Shown here piece by piece: positions 6,045-26,825 of a stretch of DNA of 43,115 nt. Source of the DNA: Pseudomonas sp. B6002 (GTDB lineage: Bacteria; Pseudomonadota; Gammaproteobacteria; Pseudomonadales; Pseudomonadaceae); NCBI RefSeq assembly GCF_013385985.1, contig NZ_JACAOY010000001.1:1-43115 (forward strand). Reading direction: 5' to 3'. The notes beneath the pieces were generated by a model, which did not search any database, had not been told where the DNA came from, and saw only the letters and a program-made list of their open reading frames with translations. Numbering within the stretch: the first letter of the stretch is position 1; every line of letters begins with the position of its first letter. The translations under genes were made by a program, and so were the position numbers.

Positions 6045-6914
6045 CTAGTCAGCCAGCATTTTTAACAATGCGCTGACCGCAGCGGAGGCCGGGCGGGTTG
6101 GGGAACCGACCAGGGCAAATTCGCGGTGCATCGGCACCGTCAACGGCATGACACGCAGGCCATTTCGCTGGGCCGGCAAGGCCATTTCGGGCACCAGTGT
6201 CACGCCGACGCCTTCGCGCACCAGGCTGAAGGCACTGTTAAACTCACGCACTTCCACACGAATATCACGCAGGCTCAGCCCGGCTGCGGCTCCCAGGCTG
6301 CGCGCGTTGGCGGTGCAACCACCGGTGGCCAGCACGAACGGTTGCTCCAGCAACTCCTCCAGCGACACCGTCGCTTCAGCCGGGCGCTGTGCGAACGCAT
6401 GCTGGGCCGGCAGCACCGCCATCCAGAAATCGCGCCCCAGTACCGTGGCCTTGCGCTCGGGCTTGGGGTTGAGCACCACGCCCAGGTCGATCAGGTCGGC
6501 GTCCAGCAAGGTGTGCACTTCGCTGTCGGTGACATCCAGGGTGGTGACCTCGATACCGGGGTTCAACTGACGGAAGCGCTGCAGCAGCGGTGTCAAAAAT
6601 GTCGCCAGCACCATGGGAAAACTCGCGATACGAATGCTCCCACGCAGCAGCGGGCGGGCTTCGTCGACGGTGGTCCGAATCGCCTGCAAGGCCCCGAGCA
6701 TCACCCGCGCCTGTTCGATCACACTCAAGCCCAGGGCGGTCGGCAAGGTCTTGCGCGGCTCACGGGTAAACAATTGCGCACCCAGAGTCGCCTCCATGCC
6801 GGCCATGGCCTGGCTGGCGGCGGATTGGGTCATGCCCACGTGCTCGGCGGCGGCGGTGATGCTGCCGTGGTCGGCCACGGCCACCAGCAGGCGCCAGTGC
6901 ATCAGGTTCATCAT
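6045..6914 (-). CDS. LysR-family transcriptional regulator (gstA-linked)
   Basis: A regulator of 289 residues with the LysR helix-turn-helix at about residues 5-65 (SITAAAEHVGMTQSAASQAM, then LGAQLFTRE) and a two-lobed effector domain from about residue 90. The start at 6914 gives the normal LysR length and has AAGGA 11 bases upstream; an ATG immediately after it (6911) is possible. The frame continues upstream to 7619, but that part is the antisense of gstA. It is divergent from gstA, 96 bases apart, and likely controls it. The effector is unknown. Confidence 0.9.
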   Translation of the reverse strand: MMNLMHWRLLVAVADHGSITAAAEHVGMTQSAASQAMAGMEATLGAQLFTREPRKTLPTALGLSVIEQARVMLGALQAIRTTVDEARPLLRGSIRIASFPMVLATFLTPLLQRFRQLNPGIEVTTLDVTDSEVHTLLDADLIDLGVVLNPKPERKATVLGRDFWMAVLPAQHAFAQRPAEATVSLEELLEQPFVLATGGCTANARSLGAAAGLSLRDIRVEVREFNSAFSLVREGVGVTLVPEMALPAQRNGLRVMPLTVPMHREFALVGSPTRPASAAVSALLKMLAD

Positions 6915-7010
6915 GGCAGTAGCTGTCCTTATGGCGGGGCTCTGAAGGTTTAATTTTACGCAAGGTGTCATGCCCGTGAGACTGGCGCAAATCCAAAGGA
7001 GTCGCCCTAG

Positions 7011-7613
7011 ATGAAACTGTATTTCTTCCCCCACGCCTGCTCTCTCGCCCCGCATATCGTGCTGCGCGAATTGGCGCTGCCGTTCGAGCTGGTGCGGGTG
7101 GACAACCAGACCAAAACCACCGCCACTGGCGAGAACTTCCTGCAGATCAACCCCAAGGGCTACGTGGCGGCGCTGCAACTGGACAATGGCCAGGTGCTGA
7201 CCGAAGCCAGCGCGATCCTGCAATACCTGGCCGACCAGAAAACCGAAGCGGGCCTGGCCCCGGCCAATGGCAGTTGGGAGCGCGTGCGCTTGCAGGAATG
7301 GCTGAACTTTATCGCCAGCGAAATCCACGGCGGCCTGGCGATCTTCTTCAATGGCGCGATCCAGGGCGACGTGCGCGCCATGTTCCTCGCCACCTTGCAC
7401 AAGCGTTTCGCGATTCTGGTGCAGACGCTTGAGCGCCAGGATTACCTGCTGGAGTCCGGGTATTCGGTGGCGGATGCCTACCTGTTCGTGGTGCTGCGCT
7501 GGGCGGCGTTTCACGATATTGACCTGCAGGAATGGCCGGCGCTGGCGGCGTTTCAACAGCGCATCAGCGAGCGGCCAGCGGTGGTAACCGCATTGGCCAC
7601 CGAAGCCGCCTGA
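7011..7613 (+). CDS. gstA: Glutathione transferase GstA (beta class)
   Basis: A cytoplasmic enzyme of 200 residues close to bacterial beta-class GSTs. The N-terminal MKLYFFPHACSLAPHIVLRE carries the Cys10 that forms mixed disulfides with glutathione in this class. INPKGYVAAL and LTEASAILQYLAD form the glutathione site. The helical C-terminal domain includes YSVADAYLFVVLRW. AAAGGAG precedes the ATG. It is divergent from a LysR gene that is the likely regulator. It conjugates electrophiles or handles oxidised thiols; the physiological substrate is unknown. Confidence 0.92.
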   Translation: MKLYFFPHACSLAPHIVLRELALPFELVRVDNQTKTTATGENFLQINPKGYVAALQLDNGQVLTEASAILQYLADQKTEAGLAPANGSWERVRLQEWLNFIASEIHGGLAIFFNGAIQGDVRAMFLATLHKRFAILVQTLERQDYLLESGYSVADAYLFVVLRWAAFHDIDLQEWPALAAFQQRISERPAVVTALATEAA

Positions 7614-7628
7614 CCTCACCCACCTACC

Positions 7629-7713
7629 TGTAGGAGCCGGCTTGCCGGCGATGGCTTCCCTGAGTTCAACATTGAATTCAAGGGCCTCATCGCCAGCAAG
7701 CCGGGCTCCTACA
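7629..7713. repeat. REP pair (BIME), TGTAGGAGC type, overlapping a stop codon
   Basis: Inverted arms TGTAGGAGCCGGCTTGCC and GGCAAGCC-type complement around a centre with its own short dyad (TTCAACATTGAA). The right arm ends at 7713 and supplies the TAG stop of the minus-strand lyase gene (7709-7711). Confidence 0.9.
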
Positions 7714-9097
7714 AGGGGAAGGGGGTGGTTTGGAGGAAGGCGCTCAGGGCCAGCACGTCCACTGAGCCGGAGCGGTCCTGGTCCAGGTGCGCCACGTGGC
7801 GGCGTACCGCCTCATGGACCTGCCGCACGCCCTGCCCCAGTTGCAGCGGGCCACGCAGGTCGACGGCCTGCGCAGCGACGATCAGCTCGATGCTCGCCAA
7901 CCACAGCACCCGCTCGGTCAAACGGCGGGTCTTGTCGACCACCGCCAGCGCTTGCCCGGCGTAATCTTCCACGCGATCGGCCACTGGCACACTCACCGCC
8001 GGCAACGGGTTGGCCAAGTGCCCGATTTCGGCGACCAGCGCCGAGCTGGTGCGTTGCAAAGCCGCCATCCCGACATGCCCTGGCTGGGTGATCAGAAACC
8101 GTGGCAAGTCGCTGGACGCAGGCGATAACAGCTTGGCGATGCGTTCAGCACTGCACACTGCCACCCGACTCAAGGCTAACCCCAAGCCTTCGGCCGCCAG
8201 CGCCAGATGGGTACTGTCAAAGTTCGCCGTGGCCAGTACCAACGCCTCTTCACTGATCAACGCCGGGTTATCCGCACCGCTGCGCAGTTCCAACTCGACC
8301 AGATCATACAGCTGTTGCAACGCCTGCTGCGCGGCGCCCTGTACCACCGTGGCACAGCGAAAGCTCAACGGGTCCTGCAAGCGGCGTGGGCCATCGGCCA
8401 ACTCACCGCCCGCCAGCAGCTGTAGCAGCGCCGCCGATTGTTCGGCCTGCCCCGGCGCCGCTCGCAAGCGCGACGCCCACGGTTGGAACGGGCTGAGATT
8501 GGCCCGATAGCCTTCGCACGAAAGCGCCAGCGCCGCCAACAACGCATCCAGCACCTGCTGCGCTTCGGCCACCAGCAAGGCGCCCAGGCCGACACTCGCG
8601 GCATTCGCCGACACCAGCGCCAGGCCGTCCTTGCCGGTCAACGGCACCGACAACGCCAGGCTCAGGTGGGCCAGGGGCGCCAGGTCACTCTCGCCCAACG
8701 AGCCGAGCAACGGCACCGCGGGCTCGACCCCGGCATTGAGCAGCGCCAGCAACGCATCCGCTGCCCCAGGTGAAATGCCTGAACGGCCCTGGGCCAACCC
8801 CGCCAAACGCGCGGCTGTGATCGCGCGCACTTCCTGCCGGTTGGCCAGGCGCCCCACGCCCACCGCCCGACCCAGGGGAATATTCGCCTGCACAGGTGCC
8901 ACCGGCGTATCCACCGCCGCGCCGAGGCCGGTGGTCACGCCATAAATCGGCGTGCCTTCGGCGGCCAGTTTCAGCAGCAGTGCGTGGCCTTCCTCGATGC
9001 GCTGACGCGCTCCAGCGCTGAAGTCGGCCGGTGCATCCTGCCGGGCAATCGTCAATAAATCCGCGAGCGCCAGGCCTTGGGGATCCAGCTCAATCAT
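7709..9097 (-). CDS. Histidine/phenylalanine ammonia-lyase homologue lacking the MIO triad
   Basis: A 462-residue member of the aromatic amino acid lyase fold; canonical HAL is about 510. Family landmarks are clear: YGVTTGLG with the catalytic-type Tyr52, SLSPFQ-like and QDPLSFRC (242-249), GADNPALI, ATANFDSTH and VEDYAGQA (377-384). At the site where HAL has GSVGASGDLAPLAH, this protein has GSLGESDLAPLAH (132-144). The Ala-Ser-Gly that cyclises to the MIO electrophile is absent and one residue is missing. The position of the HAL Asn after GLALL is Ser, and Tyr in DPYSLR is Leu. A normal MIO ammonia-lyase reaction is therefore doubtful. Ergothionases, which eliminate trimethylamine, are known MIO-less relatives. 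The start overlaps the upstream OCD-like stop (ATGA), so the two are translationally coupled. Confidence 0.85.
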   Translation of the reverse strand: MIELDPQGLALADLLTIARQDAPADFSAGARQRIEEGHALLLKLAAEGTPIYGVTTGLGAAVDTPVAPVQANIPLGRAVGVGRLANRQEVRAITAARLAGLAQGRSGISPGAADALLALLNAGVEPAVPLLGSLGESDLAPLAHLSLALSVPLTGKDGLALVSANAASVGLGALLVAEAQQVLDALLAALALSCEGYRANLSPFQPWASRLRAAPGQAEQSAALLQLLAGGELADGPRRLQDPLSFRCATVVQGAAQQALQQLYDLVELELRSGADNPALISEEALVLATANFDSTHLALAAEGLGLALSRVAVCSAERIAKLLSPASSDLPRFLITQPGHVGMAALQRTSSALVAEIGHLANPLPAVSVPVADRVEDYAGQALAVVDKTRRLTERVLWLASIELIVAAQAVDLRGPLQLGQGVRQVHEAVRRHVAHLDQDRSGSVDVLALSAFLQTTPFPL

Positions 9098-10098
9098 GCC
9101 CAGCGCAACCGCTGGCCAATCCCCAGGCGCTTGGCTTTTTCCAGCAGGGCGTGGCCCAGGGCGATATCGCTGAGGCTCAGCCCGCGGTGCCAGAACAGGA
9201 TGGTTTCTTCAGGGTTTTCACGGCCATTTTTCAAGCCGGCAACGATCTGCCCCAGCTCGGCATGCAGGGTGTCGGCACTGAGTTTCCCCGCGTCGACATG
9301 CGCACGCAGCGAACCGAAAAGGCCGCCTTTGCACTGGCCCCAATCATCGACCACCAACTTGCTCATGATGTCGGTGAGCGACAGTTCCACTGCGCTCATG
9401 GTGCCGTAAGGCACGACAAACGCGCCGGGCTTGATCCAGTCGGTGCGCAGCAAGGGCTCGGGCTGATCCAGGCGCGAGGCCTCGACCACGATGTCGGCGC
9501 CGCGCACGGTGCTTTCCCAATCCTCGGTGACGATCACCGGTTTGCACAAGTCCTGGCGCAGGCGCTCGGCGAAGGCTTCGCGGCTTTCGCTGCGGCGCGA
9601 ATGCACGCGGATTTCCTCGAAGTCGAACAGGTGATCCAGCAAGCGCACGTTCCAGTACGCGGTGCCCCGGGCGCCGATATGCGCCAGCACTTTGCTGTCG
9701 GGTCGGGCCAGGTATTTGGCACCGATGGCGGTGACCGCACCGGTGCGCATATCGGTGATGGCCGAGGCGTCGAGGATCGCCTTGGGAATGCCGGTGGCCG
9801 GGTCCAGCAGGTTGAGGATCGCCAGTTCCGAGGGCAGGCCCTTGCGGTAGTTGTCGACGAAATCCCCCACCACCTTAACGCCCGCGTAGCCGATGTCGCC
9901 GCCCAGCACACCACGCAGCACGTTGAAGTGGCCGTTGATCTCGCCGCCGGGAATCAGGTGGGTGCGCGGCTCGATCACCGCCTCGCCCCGGCCCTGGATC
10001 GCCAGGCTGGCTTCGATGGCGGTGAGGATTTCGTCGTTGGAGAGGCCCAGTTCATCGATGTCGAGGCCGTTGAGAAAGTCGATGTAGATCGGTTGCAT
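9094..10098 (-). CDS. Ornithine cyclodeaminase / mu-crystallin family protein
   Basis: A 334-residue NAD-dependent enzyme of the OCD/mu-crystallin family. Substrate-side residues EPRTH (Arg45), GVKVVGD (Lys75) and ITDMRTG (Arg118) are in the usual places, and the Rossmann motif reads HIGARGTAYWN (140-150). Family members make proline from ornithine or act as ketimine reductases or amino-acid dehydrogenases, and the real substrate cannot be read from sequence. The start at 10098 is chosen because the upstream frame is REP DNA. The stop overlaps the lyase start, so the two proteins probably act in one pathway. It lies 138 bases after the sulfonate-type binding protein, with a REP between. Confidence 0.87.
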   Translation of the reverse strand: MQPIYIDFLNGLDIDELGLSNDEILTAIEASLAIQGRGEAVIEPRTHLIPGGEINGHFNVLRGVLGGDIGYAGVKVVGDFVDNYRKGLPSELAILNLLDPATGIPKAILDASAITDMRTGAVTAIGAKYLARPDSKVLAHIGARGTAYWNVRLLDHLFDFEEIRVHSRRSESREAFAERLRQDLCKPVIVTEDWESTVRGADIVVEASRLDQPEPLLRTDWIKPGAFVVPYGTMSAVELSLTDIMSKLVVDDWGQCKGGLFGSLRAHVDAGKLSADTLHAELGQIVAGLKNGRENPEETILFWHRGLSLSDIALGHALLEKAKRLGIGQRLRWA

Positions 10099-10236: not shown

Positions 10237-11163
10237 TCAAGGGGCGTGGAACACGATTTGCTGCACATCGACCTTTTTCGGGATCAGGCCGTTGGCAAAG
10301 AACAGGTCGGCGGTGCGTTGCTGGTTAGCGACGTCGACGGCTTGCAGCGGACGGATCGGCGCCGGCGAGCGGTGTTCGAAGTAGCTGCGCACCACGGCCG
10401 GTGGCAGGCCCAGGGTCTTGGCCATCAGGGCGATGCTGTCGTCGGGCTGGTCCAGGGACAGGCGCTGCGCCTTGGCCAGGGTCTGGATGATGGTGGCAAC
10501 CACCTGCGGGTGCTGTTGTGCAAACGGATGGTTGACCACAAAGAAACTGCCGGCCGGGTTGAGGCCCTGGCCATCGCCCAGCACACGGGCGGAACCGTCG
10601 ACCACGGCGGCCGAGTAGTAAGGGTCCCACACCACCCACGCGTCGACCTTGCCCTGCTCGAACGCGGCGCGCCCATCGGACGGTGACAGGTACACCACGT
10701 TCACGTCTTTCCATTGCAAACCGGCGCGCAGAAGGCTTTTCAAGAACAGGTTGTGGGCACTGGAACCCTTGAGCAGCGCCACGCGCTTGCCCTTGAGTTC
10801 GGCCACGCTCTGGATCGTGCTGGACTTGGGCACCAGCACCGCTTCGGTCTTGCCTTCATTGGGCTCGACGGCGAAGTACTGCAGGTCAATGCCAGCCGCC
10901 TGAGCGAAGATCGGCGGGATGTCGCCGATATTGCCGATGTCCAGGCTGCCGCCGTTCAACGCCTCGATCAGCGGCGGGCCACCGAGAAATTCGATCCACT
11001 GTACCTGGGTGCCGGGCAGCGCGGCTTCAAAGAGCTTGTGCTCACGGGCCAGCACCATGCTCACCGAGCTTTTCTGGTAGCCGATGCGCAAGGTGGCCGG
11101 GTCGGCCGCCAGCACGTGGCCAGCGACCAGCGATAGAACGGCAGCAGCGAGGAATTTAAGCAT
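10237..11163 (-). CDS. Sulfonate/taurine-type ABC substrate-binding protein (SsuA-like)
   Basis: A periplasmic binding protein of 308 residues with a clear signal peptide (MLKFLAAAVLSLVAGHVLA). The SsuA/TauA/NMT1-type core follows: LRIGYQKSSVSMVLAR, FLGGPPLIEALNGGSLDIG, VALLKGSSAHNLF and VWDPYYSAAV. Relatives bind aliphatic sulfonates, taurine or nitrate-like anions for ABC import. Its ATG overlaps the stop of the betaine-type binding protein (TGATG), so the two are coupled. No permease or ATPase gene is present nearby. The ligand is unknown. Confidence 0.88.
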   Translation of the reverse strand: MLKFLAAAVLSLVAGHVLAADPATLRIGYQKSSVSMVLAREHKLFEAALPGTQVQWIEFLGGPPLIEALNGGSLDIGNIGDIPPIFAQAAGIDLQYFAVEPNEGKTEAVLVPKSSTIQSVAELKGKRVALLKGSSAHNLFLKSLLRAGLQWKDVNVVYLSPSDGRAAFEQGKVDAWVVWDPYYSAAVVDGSARVLGDGQGLNPAGSFFVVNHPFAQQHPQVVATIIQTLAKAQRLSLDQPDDSIALMAKTLGLPPAVVRSYFEHRSPAPIRPLQAVDVANQQRTADLFFANGLIPKKVDVQQIVFHAP

Positions 11164-12176
11164 CAGAGCGCCCCCTTGACCTTGGCCGCGACGTCCGCCG
11201 GCACCCACTGTTGCCAGACTTGCGGTTGCTCCTTGAGGAACGTCAACGCCACTTGGCGCGGTTGCTCACGCTTCTCGCTCATCTGTGCGAGGGTGCCGTT
11301 GAGCAGGTCGATCGGCAGGTCGACTTTCTCGAAGAACGTCACCAACTGCGGGTACTGCGCCTTGAACGGCGCCGACACGCCAATCGCCAAATGCGCGGGC
11401 AACGAACGGGTGCCGATGGGGTGCGGATTGTGGGCGTCGGCCAGGGTTTTCCAGGCCTCGGCGTTGAACGGCGGCTCTTCCAGCTTGATCAGCTTGAAGC
11501 GGCCGAGCAGCGGCGTCGGCGACCAGTAGTAGAACAACACCGGCTTGCCGCGACGGATCGACGACGCCACCTCGGCGTCCAGCGCCGCGCCGGAACCGGT
11601 GCGGAAGTTGACGAAGGTGTCGGTCAGGCCATACGCCTTGAGCTTCTGGCTGTTGACGATCTCCGAGGTCCAGCCGGTGGGGCTGTTGAGGAAGCGCCCT
11701 TTGCTGGGGTCTTCGGGGTCACGGAACACGTCTTTGTAGCGCGCCAGGTCGGCCACCGATTTCAGCTCGGGCGCCAGCGGTTTGATACCCCGTTCGGCAT
11801 CGCCCTTGATCACGTACTCGGGCACCCACCAGCCTTCGGTGGCGCCTTTGACCGTGTCGCCCAGGCCGAACACCTTGCCTTCACTTTCGGCCTTGACCCA
11901 CGCCGGACTGCGCCCGGCCCACTCTTCGCCGATCACCTGAATGTCGTCCTTGGCCAGGGCGGCTTCCAGGCTCACGGTGCTGCCGGGCAAGGTGTCGGTG
12001 GGCAGGCCGTAGCCTTTCTCGACGATCACGCGCAGCACTTCGGTGATGAGGCTGCCGCTTTCCCAGGTGATGTCACCGAAGTGGATCGGCTTGACCGCGT
12101 CGGCGGCGGGCGCGTGTTGGGCCACAAGGGCCAGTGCCAGTAGTGAGCCACCGAGCAGATGTTTGATCTTTTTCAT
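11163..12176 (-). CDS. Glycine betaine/proline-type ABC substrate-binding protein (ProX/OpuAC-like)
   Basis: A periplasmic binding protein of 337 residues. The signal peptide MKKIKHLLGGSLLALALVA ends near HAPAADA. The OpuAC fold shows several aromatic candidates for a quaternary-ammonium cage: DITWESG, EEWAGRSPAW, GWWVPEYV and FYYWSPTPLL. GAGG lies at a good distance before the ATG. The gene follows the TonB receptor after 135 bases with a REP pair, and is coupled to the SsuA-like gene. Known relatives bind betaines, carnitine or ergothioneine. The exact ligand is not predictable, and no permease is encoded nearby. Confidence 0.87.
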   Translation of the reverse strand: MKKIKHLLGGSLLALALVAQHAPAADAVKPIHFGDITWESGSLITEVLRVIVEKGYGLPTDTLPGSTVSLEAALAKDDIQVIGEEWAGRSPAWVKAESEGKVFGLGDTVKGATEGWWVPEYVIKGDAERGIKPLAPELKSVADLARYKDVFRDPEDPSKGRFLNSPTGWTSEIVNSQKLKAYGLTDTFVNFRTGSGAALDAEVASSIRRGKPVLFYYWSPTPLLGRFKLIKLEEPPFNAEAWKTLADAHNPHPIGTRSLPAHLAIGVSAPFKAQYPQLVTFFEKVDLPIDLLNGTLAQMSEKREQPRQVALTFLKEQPQVWQQWVPADVAAKVKGAL

Positions 12177-12224
12177 GCAGAACCTCGTGGTGATTCGGAT
12201 GAGTAATACGGTGCATTGGATGAC

Positions 12225-12292
12225 GCCATCGCCGGCAAGCCGGCTCCTACAGATCAACTCAATCCTGTAGGAGCCGGCTTGCCGGCGATGGC
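12225..12292. repeat. REP pair, tail-to-tail orientation
   Basis: Arms in the opposite order to the other pairs: GCCATCGCCGGCAAGCCGG (12225 on) first, then the complement (12266-12292), with a 14-base centre. It lies between the TonB receptor gene and the downstream binding-protein gene. Confidence 0.88.
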
Positions 12293-12311
12293 CTCGACTC
12301 GATCTCAACCC

Positions 12312-14948
12312 TTAAAAGTCATAACTGAGCCGCGTGTAGTAAAACGCCCCCTCCGGCGCGGTCGGCGACAGGTAGCTGTATTGCTGACCGGGCGTCTGGC
12401 GCAGGCGGGTGTTGAAGTCGTCGGGTTTGCTGTCGAACAGGTTGTTCACGCCCACCGAGACGCGCAGTTGCTTGGTGAACGCGTAGTTCACGTCCAGGTC
12501 GGTGGTCCATTGCGCGCTGAAGGTCTGGTCGTATTGGGCATTGGCTTCGGCAGCCGCGTATTTGCGGTATTTGCCGTAGCGGGTTTCGTTGAGGGCAATG
12601 GTCCACTGGTTGATCTTGTGCACCGCGCCGAACACCAGCTTGTCCTCGGGGTAGCCATGCTCGATAAAGCCACGGGCTTCGCGGGTCAGCACTTCGAAGC
12701 CGTTGGGGTTTTCGTGGACCTTCTCGATGGTGGTGCGGGCCTTGGTGTAGCCGGCCGACAGGTTCAGGTCACCGAACTGCGCAAGGTCAATGTTGTACTT
12801 GCCGACGATGTCGACACCCCGGGTGCGGGTGTCGGCGGCGTTGGTCATGAACTGCGCCCAGGAGTACTGGCCGTAGCCGGCATTGTTGAGGATCTGCTCG
12901 GCCAAGGGCCCGGAAATACCGCCGCTGAACAACAGCCGGTCGCGGATCGAGATCTGGTAGGCATCGACGGTCAGGGATGCGTGTTCGGTCGGTCGCAGCA
13001 CCAGGCCCAACGAGTAGTTGGTGGATTTTTCTGGCTTGAGCGCCTGGGCGCCGAGGGCACGGGCGGCCGGGTTGTCGGCCGGCAGCATGCGGGTCAGCAC
13101 CGGGTTGCCGTTGACGTCCAGGTTGGTGGTGGTGGTCCACGACGTGCCGATCTGCCCCAGGCTCGGCGCGTGGTACGCGTTGTTGACCGTCGCGCGCACG
13201 CCCACTTGCGGGGTGAAGTCATAGCGCGCCGACAGCTTGCCCGTGGTGGCCGAGCCGAAATCCGAGTAGTGCTCGGTGCGCCCGGCCACGCCCACTTGCA
13301 GCTTGTCGGTGACCTGGTTTTCCAGGCCGAAATACACCCCGCCCACGTCGCGCTTGAAGGTGCCGGCGTCATCCGGCGTCAGGCCCGAAGCCTGCACCGC
13401 GCCCACTTGCACGTTGTCGATACCGCCATAGGAGTAGGAATCGTAGTCACCCGCCTCCAGGCGATATTGCTCATGCCGGTAGGCCACGCCGGCCGAGACG
13501 GTCAGCGGGTGGCTGGACCAGTTCACGTCCAGGTCCTTGGCGTAGTCGAGGGTGATGTTGGTCTGGTCGTTGATCAGGGTGGCGACGTTGAATTTGGTCG
13601 GGCTGTTGGCACCGTAGCTGGGGTTGACGGTGTTGAAGGCCAGTTCATCGTGCTCGTCGCGACCATAAGTGGCGCTCAGGTCGAAGCGACCGATGCTGTC
13701 ATCCTCATAACGGGTGCCCACGGTGATGGCGCCGTCTTCATAGCGATAGCGGTATTTGGGGATCGTGCCGTTGGGGTAGATCGCCGCCACGTTATTCGGG
13801 CTGCTGGCCAGCAACGGCGGCGTGTTGTTCACCGACGTGTCCTGGCCAAAGGTGGCGAAGCTGTAGAGGCGCCATTGATCGTTCAGGCCGATCTCGGCGT
13901 TGGCCGCCAGGTTGTATTTGTCACGCCCGGCACCGCCCCAGCGCGGGTCTTGCACCTGGCCGTCGGCCACGTACTTGTCGCCGATATCGTCGGGTTTGTT
14001 GTTCAGGGTGTTGAAGCTCAGGGTCAGGAAGCCATCGCCCGGCAGGCCGATGCCGTACCAGCCGTCGGTGGTCTTGCTGAAGCCGTCGCCCTGGGCGTAC
14101 TTGCCCAGTTGCGTGTTGATGCCGCCGCCGCTGTCGCGCTCCTTGAGCACGATGTTGACCACGCCGGCCACTGCGTCGGAGCCGTACTGCGCCGAGGCGC
14201 CATCACGCAGCACTTCGACGTGGTCGATGGCGCTGATGGGGATCATGTCCAGGTCCACCGGCTGGGCACCAATGAACGGCACGCCACCGGAAATATTCAC
14301 CACCGCCGAGGTGTGCCGGCGCTTGCCGTTGATCAGCACCAGGGTCTGGTCCGGTGACAGGCCGCGCAGTGACGCGCCCTTGGGGTCCTGGCCACGGGTG
14401 GCGCTGTTGTTCTGCGGAAAGTTGAACGAGGGCAGCAACTGGAACAGCGCCTGGTTAAGGCTGGTGGCGCCGGTCTGCTTGAGTTCTTCGGCGTTGATCA
14501 CGTCCACCGGGGCGCTGCTGGTCAGAGCCGTGGCGTCACTGCGACGGGTGCCGATGGCGACCACGCGGTCCAGGGTCGGCGCCTGCGCGGCGCTGGTCTG
14601 GGCCTTGACGCTGCTGGTGGCGTTTTTGCTCGCGCCTTCCTTGATGATAAAGGCACCTTCCGGGCTGACCTGCACTTGCAGGCCGGTGCCCTTGAGTGCG
14701 GCGTCGACGGCCTGGTGGGCCGACAGCGAACCGTCCACGCTGGCCGAGGAATACTGGCCCAGTTGCGGCGTGAAGGAGATCACCTGGCCGCTCTGACGGC
14801 TGATGTTCAGCAGCACTTCATCCAACGGGCCAGGGGCGATGTGATAGACCTGACGCGCCTCTTCGGCACTGGCGGCAAATGACAAAAACAGGCTGGCCAA
14901 CGGCACCAGGGCAAAGGTTCGAAGCGGCACACGGTTGAACTGACTCAC
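12312..14948 (-). CDS. TonB-dependent outer-membrane receptor with STN signalling domain
   Basis: An 878-residue FecA-like transducer. It has a signal peptide ending at SFAASAEEA and a Secretin/TonB short N-terminal (STN) signalling domain at about 35-105 (YHIAPGPLDEVLLNISRQSG). A TonB-box-like stretch DRVVAIGTR is followed by the plug (SLRGLSPDQTLVLINGKRR; VEVLRDGASAQYGSDAVAG) and a beta-barrel ending in SYDF. The start is GTG at 14948, after GGGGAG; the longer open frame upstream lacks coding sense. STN domains signal to FecR-type regulators, and fecR/fecI-like genes lie directly upstream. The plug is of the general type rather than a clear siderophore type, so the ligand may not be an iron chelate. 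Confidence 0.9.
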   Translation of the reverse strand: MSQFNRVPLRTFALVPLASLFLSFAASAEEARQVYHIAPGPLDEVLLNISRQSGQVISFTPQLGQYSSASVDGSLSAHQAVDAALKGTGLQVQVSPEGAFIIKEGASKNATSSVKAQTSAAQAPTLDRVVAIGTRRSDATALTSSAPVDVINAEELKQTGATSLNQALFQLLPSFNFPQNNSATRGQDPKGASLRGLSPDQTLVLINGKRRHTSAVVNISGGVPFIGAQPVDLDMIPISAIDHVEVLRDGASAQYGSDAVAGVVNIVLKERDSGGGINTQLGKYAQGDGFSKTTDGWYGIGLPGDGFLTLSFNTLNNKPDDIGDKYVADGQVQDPRWGGAGRDKYNLAANAEIGLNDQWRLYSFATFGQDTSVNNTPPLLASSPNNVAAIYPNGTIPKYRYRYEDGAITVGTRYEDDSIGRFDLSATYGRDEHDELAFNTVNPSYGANSPTKFNVATLINDQTNITLDYAKDLDVNWSSHPLTVSAGVAYRHEQYRLEAGDYDSYSYGGIDNVQVGAVQASGLTPDDAGTFKRDVGGVYFGLENQVTDKLQVGVAGRTEHYSDFGSATTGKLSARYDFTPQVGVRATVNNAYHAPSLGQIGTSWTTTTNLDVNGNPVLTRMLPADNPAARALGAQALKPEKSTNYSLGLVLRPTEHASLTVDAYQISIRDRLLFSGGISGPLAEQILNNAGYGQYSWAQFMTNAADTRTRGVDIVGKYNIDLAQFGDLNLSAGYTKARTTIEKVHENPNGFEVLTREARGFIEHGYPEDKLVFGAVHKINQWTIALNETRYGKYRKYAAAEANAQYDQTFSAQWTTDLDVNYAFTKQLRVSVGVNNLFDSKPDDFNTRLRQTPGQQYSYLSPTAPEGAFYYTRLSYDF

Positions 14949-15027
14949 TTTGGCTCCCCCCAAGGAAACTCGAGAACGCTGCTCCCCGCAGCGCTTACGG
15001 GAGTGATGTGGGACAGCCGGGGGAAAA

Positions 15028-15058
15028 CTTGCAGATCGTTTGGTTATGTCCTTAGAAC
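15028..15058 (-). promoter_or_regulatory. Shared upstream element 1 (TonB receptor), candidate ECF promoter
   Basis: Read on the minus strand this is GTTCTAAG, five bases, then AACCAAACGATCTGCAAG. The same arrangement occurs upstream of the desaturase gene (18506-18536), with 25 of 31 positions identical and no gaps. It lies about 80 bases before the receptor start. Similarity is seen directly; a role as promoter of the neighbouring ECF sigma factor is inference. Confidence 0.55.
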
Positions 15059-15080
15059 CCCCACCGAACAACCGCCGCTC

Positions 15081-15167
15081 TGTAGGAGCTGGCTTGCCAG
15101 CGATGCAGGCGCCTCGGTCTTTGTTTAGGACCGGGTTGATGCCATCGCCGGCAAGCCGGCTCCTACA
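15081..15167. repeat. REP pair, mixed arms
   Basis: Left arm TGTAGGAGCTGGCTTGCCAG, right arm GCCGGCAAGCCGGCTCCTACA. The arms differ by compensating changes within each inner stem. It lies between the fecR-like stop and the receptor promoter. Confidence 0.88.
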
Positions 15168-15171
15168 GAGG

Positions 15172-16110
15172 TCAGGCCGCACTGACGGTCACCCACAGGC
15201 CGGTACGGCGCGTGATGTGGATCGGCAAGGTGCGCGCCAGGGTGTCGAGGATTTGCTGGGGGTTGTCGAGGCGGTACAGGCCGCTTACGCGCAGGCCGGC
15301 GACAGCGGGGTCCAGGCGCAGCACGCCGTTGTGATACGGGCGCAACGCCTCGATCACCTCGGCCAGCGGGCGGTCGCGTACCTGCAGGAAACCATCGACC
15401 CACGCGGTAGCGGCAGAAGAACTGGCCTCAACAGGGCCAAAGCCCGTGGGGTCGTAGTGCACTTCATGGCCGGCCGCCAGTTGCAGGCGCTCGCCGTCCT
15501 GGCGGTCGATCTGCACCGCGCCGCTGAGCGCGACGACCTGGCCCTGCCCTTCCCGCTCACGCACCAAAAAGCGATTGCCATAGGCGTGCAGGCGCGCGTG
15601 GTCAGTCTGGATCAGAAACGGTCGATTGCGGTCGCTGGCAACCTTGGCGAGTAACTCGCCTTCGCGCAGGCGCACCAGGCGCCGTTGCGAATCAAACCGG
15701 ATATCCGCCGCGCTTTGCGCGTTCAACAGTAATTCGCTGCCATCGGCCAGGGTGACGGTGCGGCGCTCGCCGGTGCCGGTGCGGACATCGGCGGTCAGCT
15801 CCGACAAGCCCATGGGCTTGGCCAGCAGCGCTGCGCCGATAGCCACGCCTGCGCCGGCCAACGCGATCTGCAACACCTGGCGCCGACTGGAAGGCGCGTC
15901 CAACGCCTGCTGCAACACTTTGCCGCTCACCCCCTGGGCCTGGGGAATCTGGAACACGCCCAGGCGCGTCTCCAGTTGCTGGCACAGCGCTTCGTGGCGC
16001 GGGTCACTGGCGCGCCACTGGTGATAACGCTGCCAATCCGCCGCCGTGGCCTGACCCGAACGCAACAGCACGTACCAGTGCGTGGCACTGTCGATCAGTT
16101 CGTCGTTCAT
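15172..16110 (-). CDS. FecR-family anti-sigma/sigma regulator
   Basis: A 312-residue inner-membrane regulator. The N-terminal cytosolic part (about 1-72, ATHWYVLLRSGQATAADWQRY) is the sigma-interacting DUF4880-type region. One membrane segment follows at about 78-97 (IALAGAGVAIGAALLAKPMG), then a periplasmic FecR domain with RTGTGERRTVTLADGSELLL and VVALSGAVQI. FecR proteins relay the STN signal of a loaded TonB receptor to the cognate ECF sigma factor. The start overlaps the stop of the sigma gene (ATGA). The receptor gene follows after 223 bases. Confidence 0.92.
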   Translation of the reverse strand: MNDELIDSATHWYVLLRSGQATAADWQRYHQWRASDPRHEALCQQLETRLGVFQIPQAQGVSGKVLQQALDAPSSRRQVLQIALAGAGVAIGAALLAKPMGLSELTADVRTGTGERRTVTLADGSELLLNAQSAADIRFDSQRRLVRLREGELLAKVASDRNRPFLIQTDHARLHAYGNRFLVREREGQGQVVALSGAVQIDRQDGERLQLAAGHEVHYDPTGFGPVEASSSAATAWVDGFLQVRDRPLAEVIEALRPYHNGVLRLDPAVAGLRVSGLYRLDNPQQILDTLARTLPIHITRRTGLWVTVSAA

Positions 16111-16616
16111 TCCAGGCACAGCCGCAGGCAACGGTTGAGGGCGCGGGCCATGTAGTCGCTCACCGAGCGCTGGGATATACCCAGCTCGACCGCGATTTCC
16201 GGGTAGGTCAGGCCATTGAGCTGCGACAACAAAAAGGTCGCCTTGACCTTGGCCGGCAAACCGTCGAGCAAGTGGTCGATGGCCTGCAGGGCTTCGAGCA
16301 TTTGCGCCAGGTCTTCGGGCGAGGGTGCGGTGGAGGTTTCGTCGTTGTCGAGGGCGTCGAGGTAGGCGCGCTCCAGGTCCCGGCGACGCCACAGCTGGTA
16401 CATCAGGCGCTGGGCAATGGTGGTGAGCAAGGCACGGGGTTGCCGGATCGGCATCACACCCGGCGAACTCAAGAGTTGGACAAAGGTGTCGGCGGCGATG
16501 TCTTCGGCGTGCGCACGGGAGTCGAGATGACGGTGCAAACGGCTGCACAGCCAGTCGTAATGACTGCGGAACAATCCGCCCACGTAATCGCTGTGAGAAG
16601 TGTCGGCGCCGGACAT
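16107..16616 (-). CDS. FecI-like ECF RNA polymerase sigma factor
   Basis: A 169-residue ECF sigma factor. Region 2 is at about 20-55 (LCSRLHRHLDSRAHAEDIAADTF) and region 4 at about 115-165 (LPAKVKATFLLSQLNGLTYP, then ELGISQRSVSDYM). It resembles the iron-starvation sigma factors that work with FecR and a TonB transducer, and both partners are adjacent. I see no clear Fur box upstream (16617-16724), so the usual iron control is not evident. Likely targets are the receptor and the desaturase operon, judged from the shared 31-base element. Confidence 0.92.
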   Translation of the reverse strand: MSGADTSHSDYVGGLFRSHYDWLCSRLHRHLDSRAHAEDIAADTFVQLLSSPGVMPIRQPRALLTTIAQRLMYQLWRRRDLERAYLDALDNDETSTAPSPEDLAQMLEALQAIDHLLDGLPAKVKATFLLSQLNGLTYPEIAVELGISQRSVSDYMARALNRCLRLCLE

Positions 16617-16724
16617 AGTGGCTCCATTTGAGTAGGTTGCGCGTTATGTCCGGTGTTCCGGTGGAGCGATCCTAGCAAGGCGACTTATTCTTTAATAATA
16701 TTTAAAAGGTATTTTTATATAACC
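16617..16724. other. AT-rich intergenic stretch upstream of the sigma-factor gene
   Basis: The stretch 16682-16724 is nearly all A and T, in sharp contrast with its surroundings. It lies between the end of the PhnD-like gene and the sigma gene and probably holds the sigma-gene promoter. No convincing Fur box or terminator was found. Confidence 0.4.
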
Positions 16725-17516
16725 TTATTGAAGTACCGAGTAGCCAGCGCTGGCGGCTTGCTGTTGATAGTCCAGCAGCACCTGATAGTCGTCTTCGCTG
16801 GCCGGGAGCACCTCCTGCACGCCCAGGGTTTCAACCACCTGCGGCAAATCCTGCAGCGCCTGGTTCATCGCCTGGCGAATCGTGGCGACCTGTTCATCGC
16901 TCAAACCCAGCGGGCCGATATAAGGCAAGGTCGGGCTGGGCGCGCTACGGGTGATGAGGCGCAGCCCCGCCACGTCCTGCGGGGCGAAACGGGCCAGGTA
17001 GTCGTAGGTCACGCTGTCGATGGCGGCGAGGTCGGCGCGGTTTTCCCGCAGCCAGCGCAGGCTCTCGCGGTGCGCGCCGCTGATGCCGACGCTGGCGAAG
17101 AAGCGGCCATCGCGCTGCAACGGCGCGAGGCGTTCGCGCAGCAGGTTCATGCCGCTGTTGGAATCATGGCCATTGATCACGCCACGGCTGTCGTAGAACT
17201 GCGCCAGGCTGGTACGCGGGTTGTCGTCGCGGGTCAGCAGCAGGCTGCAATGTTCTCCGCCGCTGCTGTGGGGCAACTCGTAGCGCGGGCGGCCGATGAC
17301 GCGGACCCTGCCGCGCAACTGGGTCATCAGCGGGTAGCCGCAGGTTTGTGTGACGAGCAGTTCGGAGGCGAGCCACAGGCCGTGCAGGTCAAGGTGGTCG
17401 GCGTTGCGGCGGCTAAGGCCGAGCCGTTCAAGAATACGTGCCAGCCACTGCTGGTTGGCCTGGTGTATGTGATCCGGCGCGACGTACATCAGCAGCTCGG
17501 CGTAATGCTCACTCAT
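16725..17516 (-). CDS. PhnD-like phosphate/phosphonate-binding-fold protein without signal peptide
   Basis: A 263-residue protein with the type 2 periplasmic-binding fold of PhnD-like proteins. Visible elements are LLVTQTCGYPL, FYDSRGVINGHDSNSGMNLL, VGISGAHRESLRWL and ADLAAIDSVTYDYL. PhnD relatives bind phosphonate or phosphite in the periplasm. This one starts MSEHYAELLMYV with no signal peptide or lipobox, and no alternative upstream start supplies one, so it is probably cytoplasmic. It follows the desaturase gene by nine bases and is almost certainly co-transcribed. Its job is unknown; a sensory or ligand-carrying role is possible. Confidence 0.8.
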   Translation of the reverse strand: MSEHYAELLMYVAPDHIHQANQQWLARILERLGLSRRNADHLDLHGLWLASELLVTQTCGYPLMTQLRGRVRVIGRPRYELPHSSGGEHCSLLLTRDDNPRTSLAQFYDSRGVINGHDSNSGMNLLRERLAPLQRDGRFFASVGISGAHRESLRWLRENRADLAAIDSVTYDYLARFAPQDVAGLRLITRSAPSPTLPYIGPLGLSDEQVATIRQAMNQALQDLPQVVETLGVQEVLPASEDDYQVLLDYQQQAASAGYSVLQ

Positions 17517-17525
17517 GGTTTTGTC

Positions 17526-18455
17526 TCACGCAAAAGGATGCCGGGGGCTGTCGATGGCCTTGAGGCCGTGACGGCTGATCAACTGGCCATAGCCCTGCAC
17601 CAGGAACCCACCGCTGCGGGCCACCCACTGCTCGCGGCGCGCGCGATACACCGCGGGCAGCAAATACCAGGGCAGTTTCGGCAAGTCGTGGTGCACCAGG
17701 TGCAGGTTGTTGTTGAGGAACAACCAGGTCCACGGCCAGGACGCTTCGTTGAGCACGGTGCGCTGTTCCGGTTGCGGGTGTGGGCGGTGTTCATAGTAGG
17801 AACGGATCGACGCCAGCGACAAGGCTGGCACGCTGACCAGCAGCAGGTAGTGCAGCACCGACAAGGCGCTGTAGTGGGCGATGAAGCTGAGCATTAGTAC
17901 GGTGACGGCGCCGTGGCACAGCCACATCGGCCATACCTGCGGCAGGCGTTGCCACTCATGGCGGGCCAGCCGGCCAATCGCCAACGGAGCGGCCAACAGG
18001 AAACGGCCGAGCACGGTCTTGGTCAGCCAATGTACACCACGCTCGAACAATGAGCTGCTGTCCCATTGGGCTTGCTTGAGGTATCGGCTTTCCGGGTCGA
18101 TGCCCGGCAGCGTGAGGTCTTCGTCGTTGTGGTGCAGCAGGTGGCTGTCGCGGTACAGCGTATAGGGGTACCACACGGCAAACGGGGCGTAGCCGAGCAG
18201 TTTGTTCACGAACAGCGAACGGGTGGGATGGCCATGGAGCAGTTCGTGTTGCACCGACAGCCACAGCGTCACCAGCGGGATCAGCAACAAGGTGCTCAGC
18301 CACAGGCCCAGCCAATGGCTGGCGAACATCACGCTGAACCAGCCGGCATAGACGCCGATGATCAGCAGCCAGGTCGGCCATTCGGTGCGTACGGTAAAAC
18401 GTTGCGCCAGGGCTTCGATTTCCCGGCGTTGGGTCAGATCAAGGTAGTTGGCCAT
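17526..18455 (-). CDS. Fatty acid desaturase-family membrane di-iron enzyme
   Basis: A 309-residue integral-membrane protein with the three histidine boxes of acyl desaturases and hydroxylases: HELLHGH (about 71), HLLHHNDED (about 105) and NLHLVHHDLPKLPWY (about 250). Hydrophobic helix pairs lie before box 1 and between boxes 2 and 3. Such enzymes use a di-iron centre and O2 to desaturate or hydroxylate acyl chains or related lipids. It heads an operon with the PhnD-like gene. The upstream 31-base element matches that of the TonB receptor, which links it to the ECF sigma factor. The substrate is not predictable. Confidence 0.9.
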   Translation of the reverse strand: MANYLDLTQRREIEALAQRFTVRTEWPTWLLIIGVYAGWFSVMFASHWLGLWLSTLLLIPLVTLWLSVQHELLHGHPTRSLFVNKLLGYAPFAVWYPYTLYRDSHLLHHNDEDLTLPGIDPESRYLKQAQWDSSSLFERGVHWLTKTVLGRFLLAAPLAIGRLARHEWQRLPQVWPMWLCHGAVTVLMLSFIAHYSALSVLHYLLLVSVPALSLASIRSYYEHRPHPQPEQRTVLNEASWPWTWLFLNNNLHLVHHDLPKLPWYLLPAVYRARREQWVARSGGFLVQGYGQLISRHGLKAIDSPRHPFA

Positions 18456-22840: not shown

Positions 22841-24532
22841 TTACTTTTTAAGACCGAGCTTCTTCAGCTCTTCATCACGTAACTCACGCCGCAGGATCTT
22901 GCCCACGTTGGTGGTCGGCAACGCATCGCGGAATTCCACGGCCTTCGGCACTTTGTAACCGGTGAGGTTGGCGCGCATGTGCTCCATCACCTGGTCCTTG
23001 GTGAGCGTCGCGCCTGGCTTGACCACGATGAAGATCTTGATGTGTTCCCCGGACTTCTCGTCCGGCACACCGATGGCCGCGCATTGCAGCACGCCCGGCA
23101 GGCCGGCCAGCACGTCTTCCAGTTCGTTGGGGTACACGTTGAAACCGGAGACCAGGATCATGTCCTTCTTGCGGTCGACGATGCGCATGTAGCCGTCTTG
23201 CTGGATGAGCGCGATATCACCGGTCTTCAACCAGCCTTCGCTGTCGAGGATTTCGGCGGTGGCGTCTTCACGCTGCCAGTAACCCTTCATCACCTGCGGG
23301 CCCTTGATGCACAGCTCGCCGATTTCGCCCAGCGGCAACTCGGTGCCGTCGTCGGCAATCACCTTGCACAGGGTCGACGGCACGGGAATGCCGATGGTGC
23401 CGATCTGGGTGTACTGGATCGGGTTGACGGTGGCCACCGGGCTGGTCTCGGTCATGCCGTAACCTTCGCAGATGCCACAACCGGTCACGTCTTTCCAGCG
23501 CTCGGCGGCCGCCAGTTGCAGGGCCATGCCGCCCGACAGGGTGACTTTCAATGCCGAGAAATCCAGCTTGCGGAACGCTTCGTTGTTGCACAGCGCCACG
23601 AACAGCGTGTTCAGACCGACAAAGCCGCTGAACTTCCACTTGGACAATTCCTTGACCATCGCCGGCAGGTCGCGCGGGTTGCTGATCAGGATGTTGTGGT
23701 TGCCGATCAGCATCATCGCCATGCAATGAAAAGTGAACGCATAGATGTGGTACAGCGGCAGCGGCGTGATCAGGATCTCGCAGCCCTCGTTGAGGTTGGA
23801 GCCCATCAGCGCCTTGCACTGCAACATGTTGGCGACGAGGTTGCGATGGGTGAGCATCGCGCCCTTGGCCACGCCGGTGGTGCCACCGGTATATTGCAGC
23901 ACGGCCACATCGCTGCTGGCCGGGTTGGCGTCGCTGACCGGTTGGCCATGCCCCTTGGCCAGCACGTCGTTGAACTTGATCGCCTTCGGCAGGTGGTACG
24001 CCGGGACCATCTTCTTCACGTACTTGATGACGCTGTTGATCAGCAGGCGCTTGAGCGGCGGCAACAGGTCGGCAACTTCGGTCACGATCACGTGCTTGAC
24101 GGAGGTCTTGGGCACGACCTTTTCCGCCAGGTGGGCCATGTTGGCCAGGCACACCAGGGCCTTGGCGCCGGAGTCGTTGAATTGGTGTTCCATTTCCCGC
24201 GCGGTGTACAGCGGGTTGGTGTTGACCACGATCAGGCCGGCGCGGATGGCACCGAACACGGCGACCGGGTATTGCAGGACGTTGGGCAGTTGCACGGCGA
24301 TGCGATCACCGGGCTTCAAATCGGTGTGCTGTTGCAGGTACGCGGCGAACGCGCCGGACAATTCGTACAACTCACCGTAGGTGATGGTCTTGCCCAGGTT
24401 GCTGAAAGCCGGTTTGTTGGCGAAGCGCTGGCAGGACTGCTTCAGTACCGCCTGAATATTCGGATACTCGTCTGGATTGATGTCTGCAGCAATCCCGGCG
24501 GGGTACTTATCCTTCCAAAAGTCTTCGTTCAT
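22841..24532 (-). CDS. fadD1: Long-chain fatty acid-CoA ligase FadD1
   Basis: A 563-residue ATP-dependent acyl-CoA synthetase that activates imported fatty acids for beta-oxidation. The AMP-binding P-loop reads YTGGTTGVAKGAMLTH (about 213-228). GYGMTETSP and the fatty-acid signature region SEGWLKTGDIA (about 430) are intact, and the C-terminal lysine region GKILRRELRDEELKK is complete. GAGGAG precedes the ATG. It lies downstream of a paralogue in the same direction, as in the P. aeruginosa fadD2-fadD1 pair. The 383-base gap to fadD2 suggests its own promoter. Confidence 0.93.
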   Translation of the reverse strand: MNEDFWKDKYPAGIAADINPDEYPNIQAVLKQSCQRFANKPAFSNLGKTITYGELYELSGAFAAYLQQHTDLKPGDRIAVQLPNVLQYPVAVFGAIRAGLIVVNTNPLYTAREMEHQFNDSGAKALVCLANMAHLAEKVVPKTSVKHVIVTEVADLLPPLKRLLINSVIKYVKKMVPAYHLPKAIKFNDVLAKGHGQPVSDANPASSDVAVLQYTGGTTGVAKGAMLTHRNLVANMLQCKALMGSNLNEGCEILITPLPLYHIYAFTFHCMAMMLIGNHNILISNPRDLPAMVKELSKWKFSGFVGLNTLFVALCNNEAFRKLDFSALKVTLSGGMALQLAAAERWKDVTGCGICEGYGMTETSPVATVNPIQYTQIGTIGIPVPSTLCKVIADDGTELPLGEIGELCIKGPQVMKGYWQREDATAEILDSEGWLKTGDIALIQQDGYMRIVDRKKDMILVSGFNVYPNELEDVLAGLPGVLQCAAIGVPDEKSGEHIKIFIVVKPGATLTKDQVMEHMRANLTGYKVPKAVEFRDALPTTNVGKILRRELRDEELKKLGLKK

Positions 24533-24564
24533 GGAAGCCCACTCCTCAGCGACGCGAATTCATC

Positions 24565-24581
24565 ATCGCATTTGATGCGAT
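24565..24581. promoter_or_regulatory. Candidate operator upstream of fadD1
   Basis: The perfect dyad ATCGCAT-TTG-ATGCGAT lies 33 bases before the fadD1 start. Its position suits a repressor site. It does not match the PsrA consensus I know, so the binding protein is unknown. Confidence 0.35.
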
Positions 24582-24806
24582 TATTATTGGTGTATGTTTT
24601 TTTAGGTGAATCTGGCGCTTTCAAGCAGGCCTAGACGTCACAAAGCGCGCCGAGAGTAGCAGCTTTGCCAAGGGCCGCCTAGAGCCAAAGGTGGGCCCCA
24701 CAGTCATAATCACGACTGTCCTACAATATTTGGTCACACTTTAAACCAGGGCAAATTCCCCCAGTAAAAGGCTCTGGAATGGGCCTTTCAGATCAACAAA
24801 TAGCAA

Positions 24807-24896
24807 TGTGGGAGCTGGCTTGCCTGCGATGGCGGTGTATCAGTCAATACATCCTGTGACTGATACACCGCCATCGCAGGCAAGCCAGCTCCCACA
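24807..24896. repeat. REP pair, TGTGGGAGC type with long perfect stem
   Basis: The inverted arms extend through GCGATGGCGGTGTATCAGTC and its complement, giving an unusually long near-perfect hairpin after the fadD2 stop codon. Confidence 0.92.
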
Positions 24897-24915
24897 ATTT
24901 TTACCCTATTTCAAA

Positions 24916-26604: not shown

Positions 26605-26825
26605 TATTCTTGTCCTCTTACCTGAGTGTGTCCGACCGCTGCCGCTATAAAAGCAGGCGGCTATAAAAAGCGGAGCTTTGGGGACGTTAGCAGCTATGGC
26701 CAAACAGGCAAATACGCCAAACCGTGTCATTGATTGTATGAATCTTGCCCCTGAGGCGTAGGCTGATACCCAAGTCCCTGGCAGATGAGCTATACACTGC
26801 ATCGAACCTGAGCAAAGGAAGCGCC

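Follow-up and report, generated by a model that had tools for sequence, protein, structure and literature searches.

A Pseudomonas histidine ammonia-lyase-fold protein without the MIO triad belongs to a conserved clade and may act on a modified histidine

Histidine ammonia-lyase (HAL) has an active-site pocket that is built from several subunits and holds the electrophilic MIO group, formed from an Ala-Ser-Gly triad. Ergothionase is active despite the loss of both MIO and the residue equivalent to HAL Tyr280. A review presents ergothionase as an enzyme without MIO that has been identified in few organisms (PMC13405746). The same review briefly covers the gut pathway of Feng (2025) (PMC13405746) and cites a catabolic pathway for ergothioneine sulfonate in Agrobacterium radiobacter (Yan, 2022, cited in PMC13405746). 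A report on an ergothioneine-specific ABC transporter states that hercynine is bound about 10,000-fold less tightly (PMC9732360).

We have analysed a HAL-fold protein that departs from HAL at the MIO site and is encoded in a 43,115-nucleotide stretch of Pseudomonas sp. B6002 (NZ_JACAOY010000001.1, positions 1 to 43,115), referred to here in its entirety as the window. The gene and the positions at which it differs from HAL are as follows.

7709..9097, minus strand: HAL-fold protein without MIO, 462 residues (PF00221; translation and profile searches)
8666..8704, minus strand: active-site loop GSLGESDLAPLAH, residues 132-144, replacing GSVGASGDLAPLAH (translation, alignments)
8867..8869, minus strand: Arg77, corresponding to HAL His83 (alignment)
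8609..8611, minus strand: Ser163, corresponding to HAL Asn195 (alignments)
8366..8368, minus strand: Leu244, corresponding to HAL Tyr280 (alignment)

Codons 8704-8666 of the 7709-9097 minus-strand frame translate exactly to residues 132-144. The protein scores 351 bits with Pfam Lyase_aromatic (cut-off 27.3) and only 291 bits with NCBIfam hutH, below the cut-off of 539 expected of a curated HutH. Compared with GSVGASGDLAPLAH of Pseudomonas putida HAL, the window loop is one residue shorter and has Glu-Ser in place of Ala-Ser-Gly, so that MIO cannot form. An earlier note on this DNA had described the triad as gone and one position as deleted, which both the translation and the P. putida alignment confirm. 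Its further claim, that the usual Asn and Tyr are replaced, holds for Asn195 (Ser163) and Tyr280 (Leu244). Among the residues that it listed as kept, Tyr52, the Arg and the late Glu are present; the numbering needs correction, with Arg248 and Glu378 counting as Arg247 and Glu377. Our alignment with HAL shows Tyr52, Gln241, Arg247, Phe293 and Glu377 to be retained. The positions come from the alignments, and for HAL numbering and residue roles we assume those familiar from the HAL literature. Two changes go beyond the earlier note, the replacement of His83 by Arg77 and a 25-residue in-frame deletion after the active-site helix. The AlphaFold model has a mean pLDDT of 68.5 and is poor over the active site. 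A Foldseek search with this poor model returned HAL-fold enzymes as all of the 50 matches listed, and its ranking intermixes aminomutases, ergothionase and HAL and so does not discriminate between them.

A pattern scan of GTDB genomes, which detects only close kin, found 19 relatives, all from Pseudomonas and 66-95% identical. Every one of the 19 has an open frame, and GS[LI]GESDLAP is kept in all 20 sequences when the window is counted. Among the eight relatives for which pN/pS was computed, the ratio is 0.11-0.13 for the four closest (0.11 for the nearest) and reaches 0.36 in the most distant of them. The start of the lyase gene overlaps the stop of the upstream OCD-family gene as ATGA. By these comparisons the MIO-less state is real and is conserved under purifying selection. 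Motif conservation, open frames and low pN/pS rule out a sequencing error or a pseudogene, and the earlier view of an intact, translationally coupled frame stands. The 25-residue deletion, which follows residue 149, is found in 11 of the 19 relatives as well as in the window, with the stretch intact in the other eight. A 4-residue deletion near residue 66 accompanies it in the same sequences.

In an unrooted tree of 59 rows with less than 80% mutual identity, the window protein falls in a clade of 20 rows (support 99/95). A second group (99/95) holds Treponema denticola ergothionase, an ergothionase-type lyase from genome G335, a lyase from genome G765 and a lyase from a Paraburkholderia plasmid (locus L131). 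The third group (100/100) joins canonical HAL to a GSVGYL-loop paralogue that we take to be HutH2-type, following hut nomenclature. Five long branches were flagged, some of them meeting, and seven rows have unusual composition. Because the tree is unrooted and has these features, it does not fix the number of MIO losses; the loss in HutH2-type proteins is, as the tree stands, on the HAL side and separate from that of the window clade. The earlier note had allowed that the protein might be placed among MIO-bearing enzymes, but the clade lies outside the 100/100 group that contains them. The hutH score, the residue changes and the tree position together rule out a canonical HAL. Public records label such genes histidine ammonia-lyase, and an enzyme unable to make MIO is thus annotated with an activity that it probably lacks.

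Window-type lyases occur in at least 16 of 250 genomes of the genus and at least nine of 398 genomes of the phylum (E < 1e-149, own genome counted in both). These counts are lower bounds because up to six (genus) or three (phylum) candidates were scored per genome. No match in the genome searches fell between E 1e-149 and about 1e-113. The clade is, on these counts, absent from most genomes sampled.

We compared individual positions across 121 aligned HAL-family rows, which include some repeat fetches of one gene. The 71 MIO-less rows among them comprise 16 GSVGYL rows, T. denticola ergothionase, the L131 lyase and 53 window-type rows, a class that excludes the other three and all triad-bearing rows. 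At the Tyr280 position, every one of the 71 MIO-less rows has Leu, Val or Ile, and every one of the 50 triad-bearing rows has Tyr. At the His83 position, 48 of the 53 window-type rows (repeat fetches included) have Arg, and the remaining five, from genus g217, keep Ser-His. The Asn195 position varies among Ser, Val, Ala and Asn. Ergothionase also has the Glu of the Pseudomonas motif, but the clade's non-Pseudomonas members have Ala there, which excludes a general catalytic role for it; we had considered this Glu as a universal catalytic residue and rejected it on that ground. MIO-less copies with His83 were seen in g217 at loci L081-L085, L113, L115, L118 and L120. The L113 copy lies near an aminotransferase and an alcohol dehydrogenase, and the OCD gene was not found in four fetched stretches around the g217 MIO-less lyase.

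The joint loss of MIO and Tyr280 raises the question of whether these proteins are lyases at all. They could instead serve as binding, regulatory or structural subunits, and the different MIO-less paralogue (GSVGYL) that neighbours HutH in the hut operon of the same genome fits such a role. We nevertheless consider it quite improbable. Equivalents of Tyr52, Gln241, Arg247, Phe293 and Glu377 are retained across the 53 window-type rows (one row has Tyr for Phe), pN/pS is low, and ergothionase is active with the same losses.

The lyase is the last gene of an operon-like row that opens with a desaturase-family oxygenase and runs through PhnD-like, ECF sigma, FecR, TonB receptor, ProX/HutX-like, SsuA-like and OCD genes. 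A glutathione transferase gene and a LysR gene lie beyond it.

6045..6911, minus strand: LysR-family regulator, part of ORF 6045-7619 (Pfam; 17 of 19 loci)
7011..7613, plus strand: glutathione transferase GstA, on the opposite strand and conserved beside the operon (17 of 19 loci)
9094..10098, minus strand: OCD/mu-crystallin-family partner, translationally coupled to the lyase, with Gly-rich loop and Asp position altered
10237..11208, minus strand: SsuA-type (aliphatic sulfonate) substrate-binding protein, start probably near 11163 (ORF)
11163..12308, minus strand: OpuAC/ProX-type binding protein, start probably near 12176 (ORF)
12312..15182, minus strand: TonB-dependent receptor with a sub-threshold STN signalling domain (18 of 19 loci)
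15172..16548, minus strand: FecR-type anti-sigma regulator, matched domains from residue 154 (ORF; 18 of 19 loci)
16107..16643, minus strand: ECF sigma factor (18 of 19 loci)
16725..17516, minus strand: PhnD-like protein with no evident signal peptide (PF12974; 17 of 19 loci)
17526..18455, minus strand: fatty-acid-desaturase-family membrane oxygenase (17 of 19 loci)

Among the 19 Pseudomonas loci, the ProX-like gene is found in 17 and the SsuA and OCD genes in 18 each. The contig of locus L007 stops a short way upstream of the lyase, and L018 is missing several operon genes. The OCD gene adjoins the lyase in all 18 Pseudomonas loci whose contig extends that far. The SsuA-type protein scores well over its cut-offs (402 bits against 299 for NF008588; 292 against 163.5 for TIGR01728). 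The desaturase-family protein has no PDB sequence match at E 0.1, and a homologue 40% identical lies near an Azospirillum cluster. No permease or ATPase accompanies the binding proteins in the Pseudomonas loci, and HutC and HutU were not found there. Elsewhere in the window, two adjacent AMP-binding enzymes are encoded at 22841-26802.

The OCD partner is better conserved than the lyase, with 61-74% identity between the window protein and seven members from other genera; OCD proteins beside clade lyases range from 61 to 99%. The GCGTQA loop of alanine dehydrogenase 1omo aligns with GARGTA in the window OCD and with GARGT[SA] or GTRGTS in other members. The Asp of 1omo IGADGPG, presumably the catalytic Asp, is Met (PYGTMSA) in all eight aligned OCD rows. 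With both the Gly-rich loop and this Asp altered, the chemistry of the OCD partner is uncertain. The altered subfamily (GARGT, Met for Asp) is conserved from Pseudomonas to Rhodobacterales. The PDB matches of the window OCD include 4m54, a 'putative ornithine cyclodeaminase' that we take to be SbnB. PhnD-like proteins without an evident signal peptide, as judged by eye from their N-termini, occur in the window (16725-17516), at L025 (10497-11297) and at L133 (9810-10613). Such a protein might be an enzyme or a sensor built on the binding-protein fold.

Our preferred reading, to which we give slightly less than an even chance, is that the window lyase is a MIO-independent C-N lyase that releases a good amine leaving group from an N-alkylated amino acid of histidine type. 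Tyr52 would serve as the general base and the Arg would hold the alpha-carboxylate within the retained Gln/Phe/Glu shell. The electrophilic MIO group would have been lost together with Tyr280. With the electrophile gone, the leaving amine would have to be good by itself, as it is in ergothionase. A tertiary or trimethylated amine would most likely be removed from a histidine-type betaine by 1,2-elimination, and the product would be a urocanate-like acrylate entering hut-like or CoA-dependent breakdown. In Pseudomonas, the operon would add uptake and surface sensing (TonB receptor, sigma/FecR and binding proteins) and would also contribute the membrane oxygenase, the altered OCD and the PhnD-like protein. 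With histidine-type regulators and betaine-type uptake genes lying near many members, a histidine betaine would be the simplest substrate. We infer the lyase activity, the type of amine, the type of ring and the roles of the partners alike.

The enzyme could, alternatively, be an ordinary ergothionase that converts ergothioneine to thiourocanate and trimethylamine. Its best PDB sequence match is ergothionase 6s7j (1.8e-54), and the two have motif changes in common. However, the window clade stands apart from the ergothionase group, and His83 is replaced by Arg, which implies recognition unlike that of either HAL or ergothionase. In addition, neither thiourocanate hydratase nor thiohydantoin desulfurase was found over cut-off in the window genome (NF058530, NF058529), where the one match to the thiourocanate hydratase family is HutU of the hut operon. 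Among the 12 tested genomes that carry OCD, two (G335 and G765) have both families, and in each they lie in a locus (L147 on G335:C10; L148 on G765:C35) away from the window-type cluster that these genomes also carry. At the G335 locus, the lyase is 34% identical to T. denticola ergothionase and has GSVGEGDI and His83. A far more divergent lyase (GSIGCADI) lies near the G765 locus, where ErtE is also matched above cut-off. Neither OCD nor the PhnD-like gene has a match at E 1e-10 in the 20-kb stretches around either ergothioneine locus. When 398 genomes of the phylum were searched with the last 308 residues of the T. denticola enzyme, no match appeared at 1e-50. This empty result carries no information, and G765, from the 398-genome sample drawn in the same way for the clade lyases, does hold an ergothioneine-type locus. 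Given the tree, the missing pathway families and the separate loci of G335 and G765, we regard a plain ergothionase as disfavoured and very unlikely, and the substrate is probably not ergothioneine itself. The earlier suggestion of a betaine substrate thus survives in part. The likeness to ergothionase and the betaine- or HutX-type transport genes found with many members support a betaine, but the clade, the Arg and the pathway genes speak against ergothioneine.

Outside Pseudomonas we studied 24 loci, hand-picked from match lists by their lyase or their OCD and thus not a random sample. Their host genera include Rhizobium, Sinorhizobium, Martelella, Azospirillum, Paracoccus, Cupriavidus, Paraburkholderia, Rhodococcus and Streptomyces. 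BLAST found a MIO-less lyase in 19 of them, 18 of window type and the ergothionase-type one of L131. Three (L128, L133, L146) have only a canonical HAL, L128 with a second lyase cut by the stretch edge so that its loop falls outside, and in the fetched stretches of two (L130, L145) BLAST found no HAL of either kind. A PhnD-like gene was detected by BLAST in 14 of the 24, betaine-type binding protein and permease genes in nine, a HutC-like gene in eight and a PF03601-type exporter in five (Pfam, run on two of these five, was positive for both). A Streptomyces plasmid combines a MIO-less lyase (GSIGASDL) with OCD and a betaine-type transporter, and a Rhodococcus locus has canonical HAL, a PhnD-like gene and an OCD match over residues 72-333 only. 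The OCD and PhnD-like pair occurs with canonical, MIO-bearing HAL (L128, L133, L146) or without HAL in the stretch (L130), so the partners do not need a MIO-less lyase; at L145, OCD is present and neither a PhnD-like gene nor HAL was found in the stretch. OCD was detected at E 1e-125 in 11 of the 398 phylum genomes and is present in all nine that carry a clade lyase, six of which belong to one genus. The adjacency of OCD and lyase varies outside Pseudomonas.

This partner set bears on a reading in which the leaving group is a secondary amine, from an opine-type or otherwise N-substituted histidine such as a histidine-derived metallophore. OCD would then act on the second C-N bond or on the amino acid set free, and the TonB receptor, ECF sigma factor and FecR would provide uptake and sensing. 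Consistent with it, 18 of the 19 Pseudomonas loci carry the TonB, FecR and sigma genes, the OCD family includes alanine dehydrogenase, 4m54 is among the OCD matches, and OCD co-occurs with all nine clade lyases of the 398 genomes. We think it unlikely. At the non-Pseudomonas loci searched with the Pseudomonas genes, the TonB/FecR/sigma set was not seen, apart from a single TonB match at 33% (L123). Transporters there are of betaine, TctC, TRAP or Ssu types, and the OCD partner is altered at its Gly-rich loop and presumed catalytic Asp.

The imidazole character assumed in our preferred reading, an N-alkylated histidine-type substrate, is indicated by HutC and HutU near OCD loci and by a HutX relative in the window. 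All five HutC-like regulators tested exceed the TIGR02018 cut-off (261-299 bits against 220), and none of the five exceeds the stricter NF011575 cut-off (424). HutU lies within the fetched stretch at four of the 24 loci (L058, L128, L131, L146). L058, in genome G130, has HutH2-type and HutU genes inside the 18-kb stretch holding the cluster, and L146 has HutC, HutH, HutU and OCD together. The window ProX-like protein is 47% identical to a protein of its own genome's hut operon, for which we assume the name HutX from that context, and 70% identical to another protein of the same genome. A betaine is not necessarily the ligand of a HutX-type or OpuC-type protein. On the plasmid of Paraburkholderia sp. 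PGU19 (L131), a MIO-less, ergothionase-type lyase (12076-13719; GSMGEADI, His83 kept) lies next to an OCD of the same type and a true HutU, which scores 967 bits against a cut-off of 375. This L131 protein is a candidate urocanate-forming lyase, acting for example on hercynine. The genome's own hut operon holds a second MIO-less HAL paralogue (L149, 7557-9080, contig C4) beside canonical HutH and flanked on the other side by a HutX/permease/ATPase-like set. This paralogue has the GSVGYL loop, Tyr280 replaced by Leu and Phe329 by Pro, in common with its 16 alignment rows (some repeats).

The replacement of His83 by Arg77 suggests a ring with other substituents, perhaps an anionic one, for example that of a ring-oxidised or 2-sulfonated histidine betaine, and the SsuA-type binding protein and the PF03601-type exporter are hints in the same direction. 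The same residue could instead bind the side-chain carboxylate or sulfonate of an acidic amino-acid derivative, and elimination would then follow an aspartase-like aci-carboxylate route, for which MIO is not required. Such a route would agree with the Arg that 48 of 53 window-type rows carry at the side-chain position, with the scores of the SsuA-type protein and with the CoA-transferase, SDR and MaoC genes found upstream of HutC and the lyase at three Rhizobium-type loci (L026, L112, L124). At L026 and L124, which are annotated, these five genes overlap their neighbours by 4 bases each. We hold an acidic substrate to be rather unlikely, since the HutC/HutU associations and the HutX relative favour an imidazole.

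Taken together, the recurring partner genes beside clade lyases point to a breakdown route for a modified histidine that the literature within our reach does not describe. Our literature search, from which subscription papers were largely out of reach, found no description of either the clade or the gene set. It is conceivable, at somewhat less than even chance, that Pseudomonadota and Actinomycetota contain a catabolic module of altered OCD, PhnD-like protein without signal peptide and MIO-free, Arg-for-His83 lyase, directed at a modified histidine other than ergothioneine. If so, two of its three core proteins would lack the textbook catalytic groups of their families. The recurrence of the partners suggests a pathway in soil and plant-associated bacteria.

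Among described systems, the ergothioneine sulfonate pathway of A. radiobacter may involve the same kind of substrate; if so, Arg77, the SsuA-type protein and the PF03601-type exporter would all be accounted for. With HutH, the window lyase has in common the fold and equivalents of Tyr53, Gln277, Arg283, Phe329 and Glu414, and in some lineages this type of OCD has hut genes nearby. In contrast to HutH, its MIO triad, Asn195, Tyr280 and His83 are all replaced. The HutH2-type paralogue likewise has neither the triad nor Tyr280, but it groups with canonical HAL (100/100), has a still shorter loop, keeps His83 and Asn195 and has Pro at Phe329. The closest likeness in detail is to ergothionase (T. 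denticola 6s7j/6s7q; Burkholderia sp. HME13), which also has a HAL fold without MIO. Both proteins have a Glu in a loop that is one residue shorter (SSIGEGDI in ergothionase, GSLGESDL in the window), Ser for Asn195, Leu for Tyr280 and the sequence LQDPLSFRC. Unlike the window lyase with its Arg77, the T. denticola, G335 (L147), G765 (L148) and L131 rows have His at the His83 position, and the T. denticola ergothionase group and the window lyase occupy separate branches of the unrooted tree (99/95 each). The clade would offer a further natural case, besides ergothionase, of possible amine elimination by the HAL fold without an electrophile.
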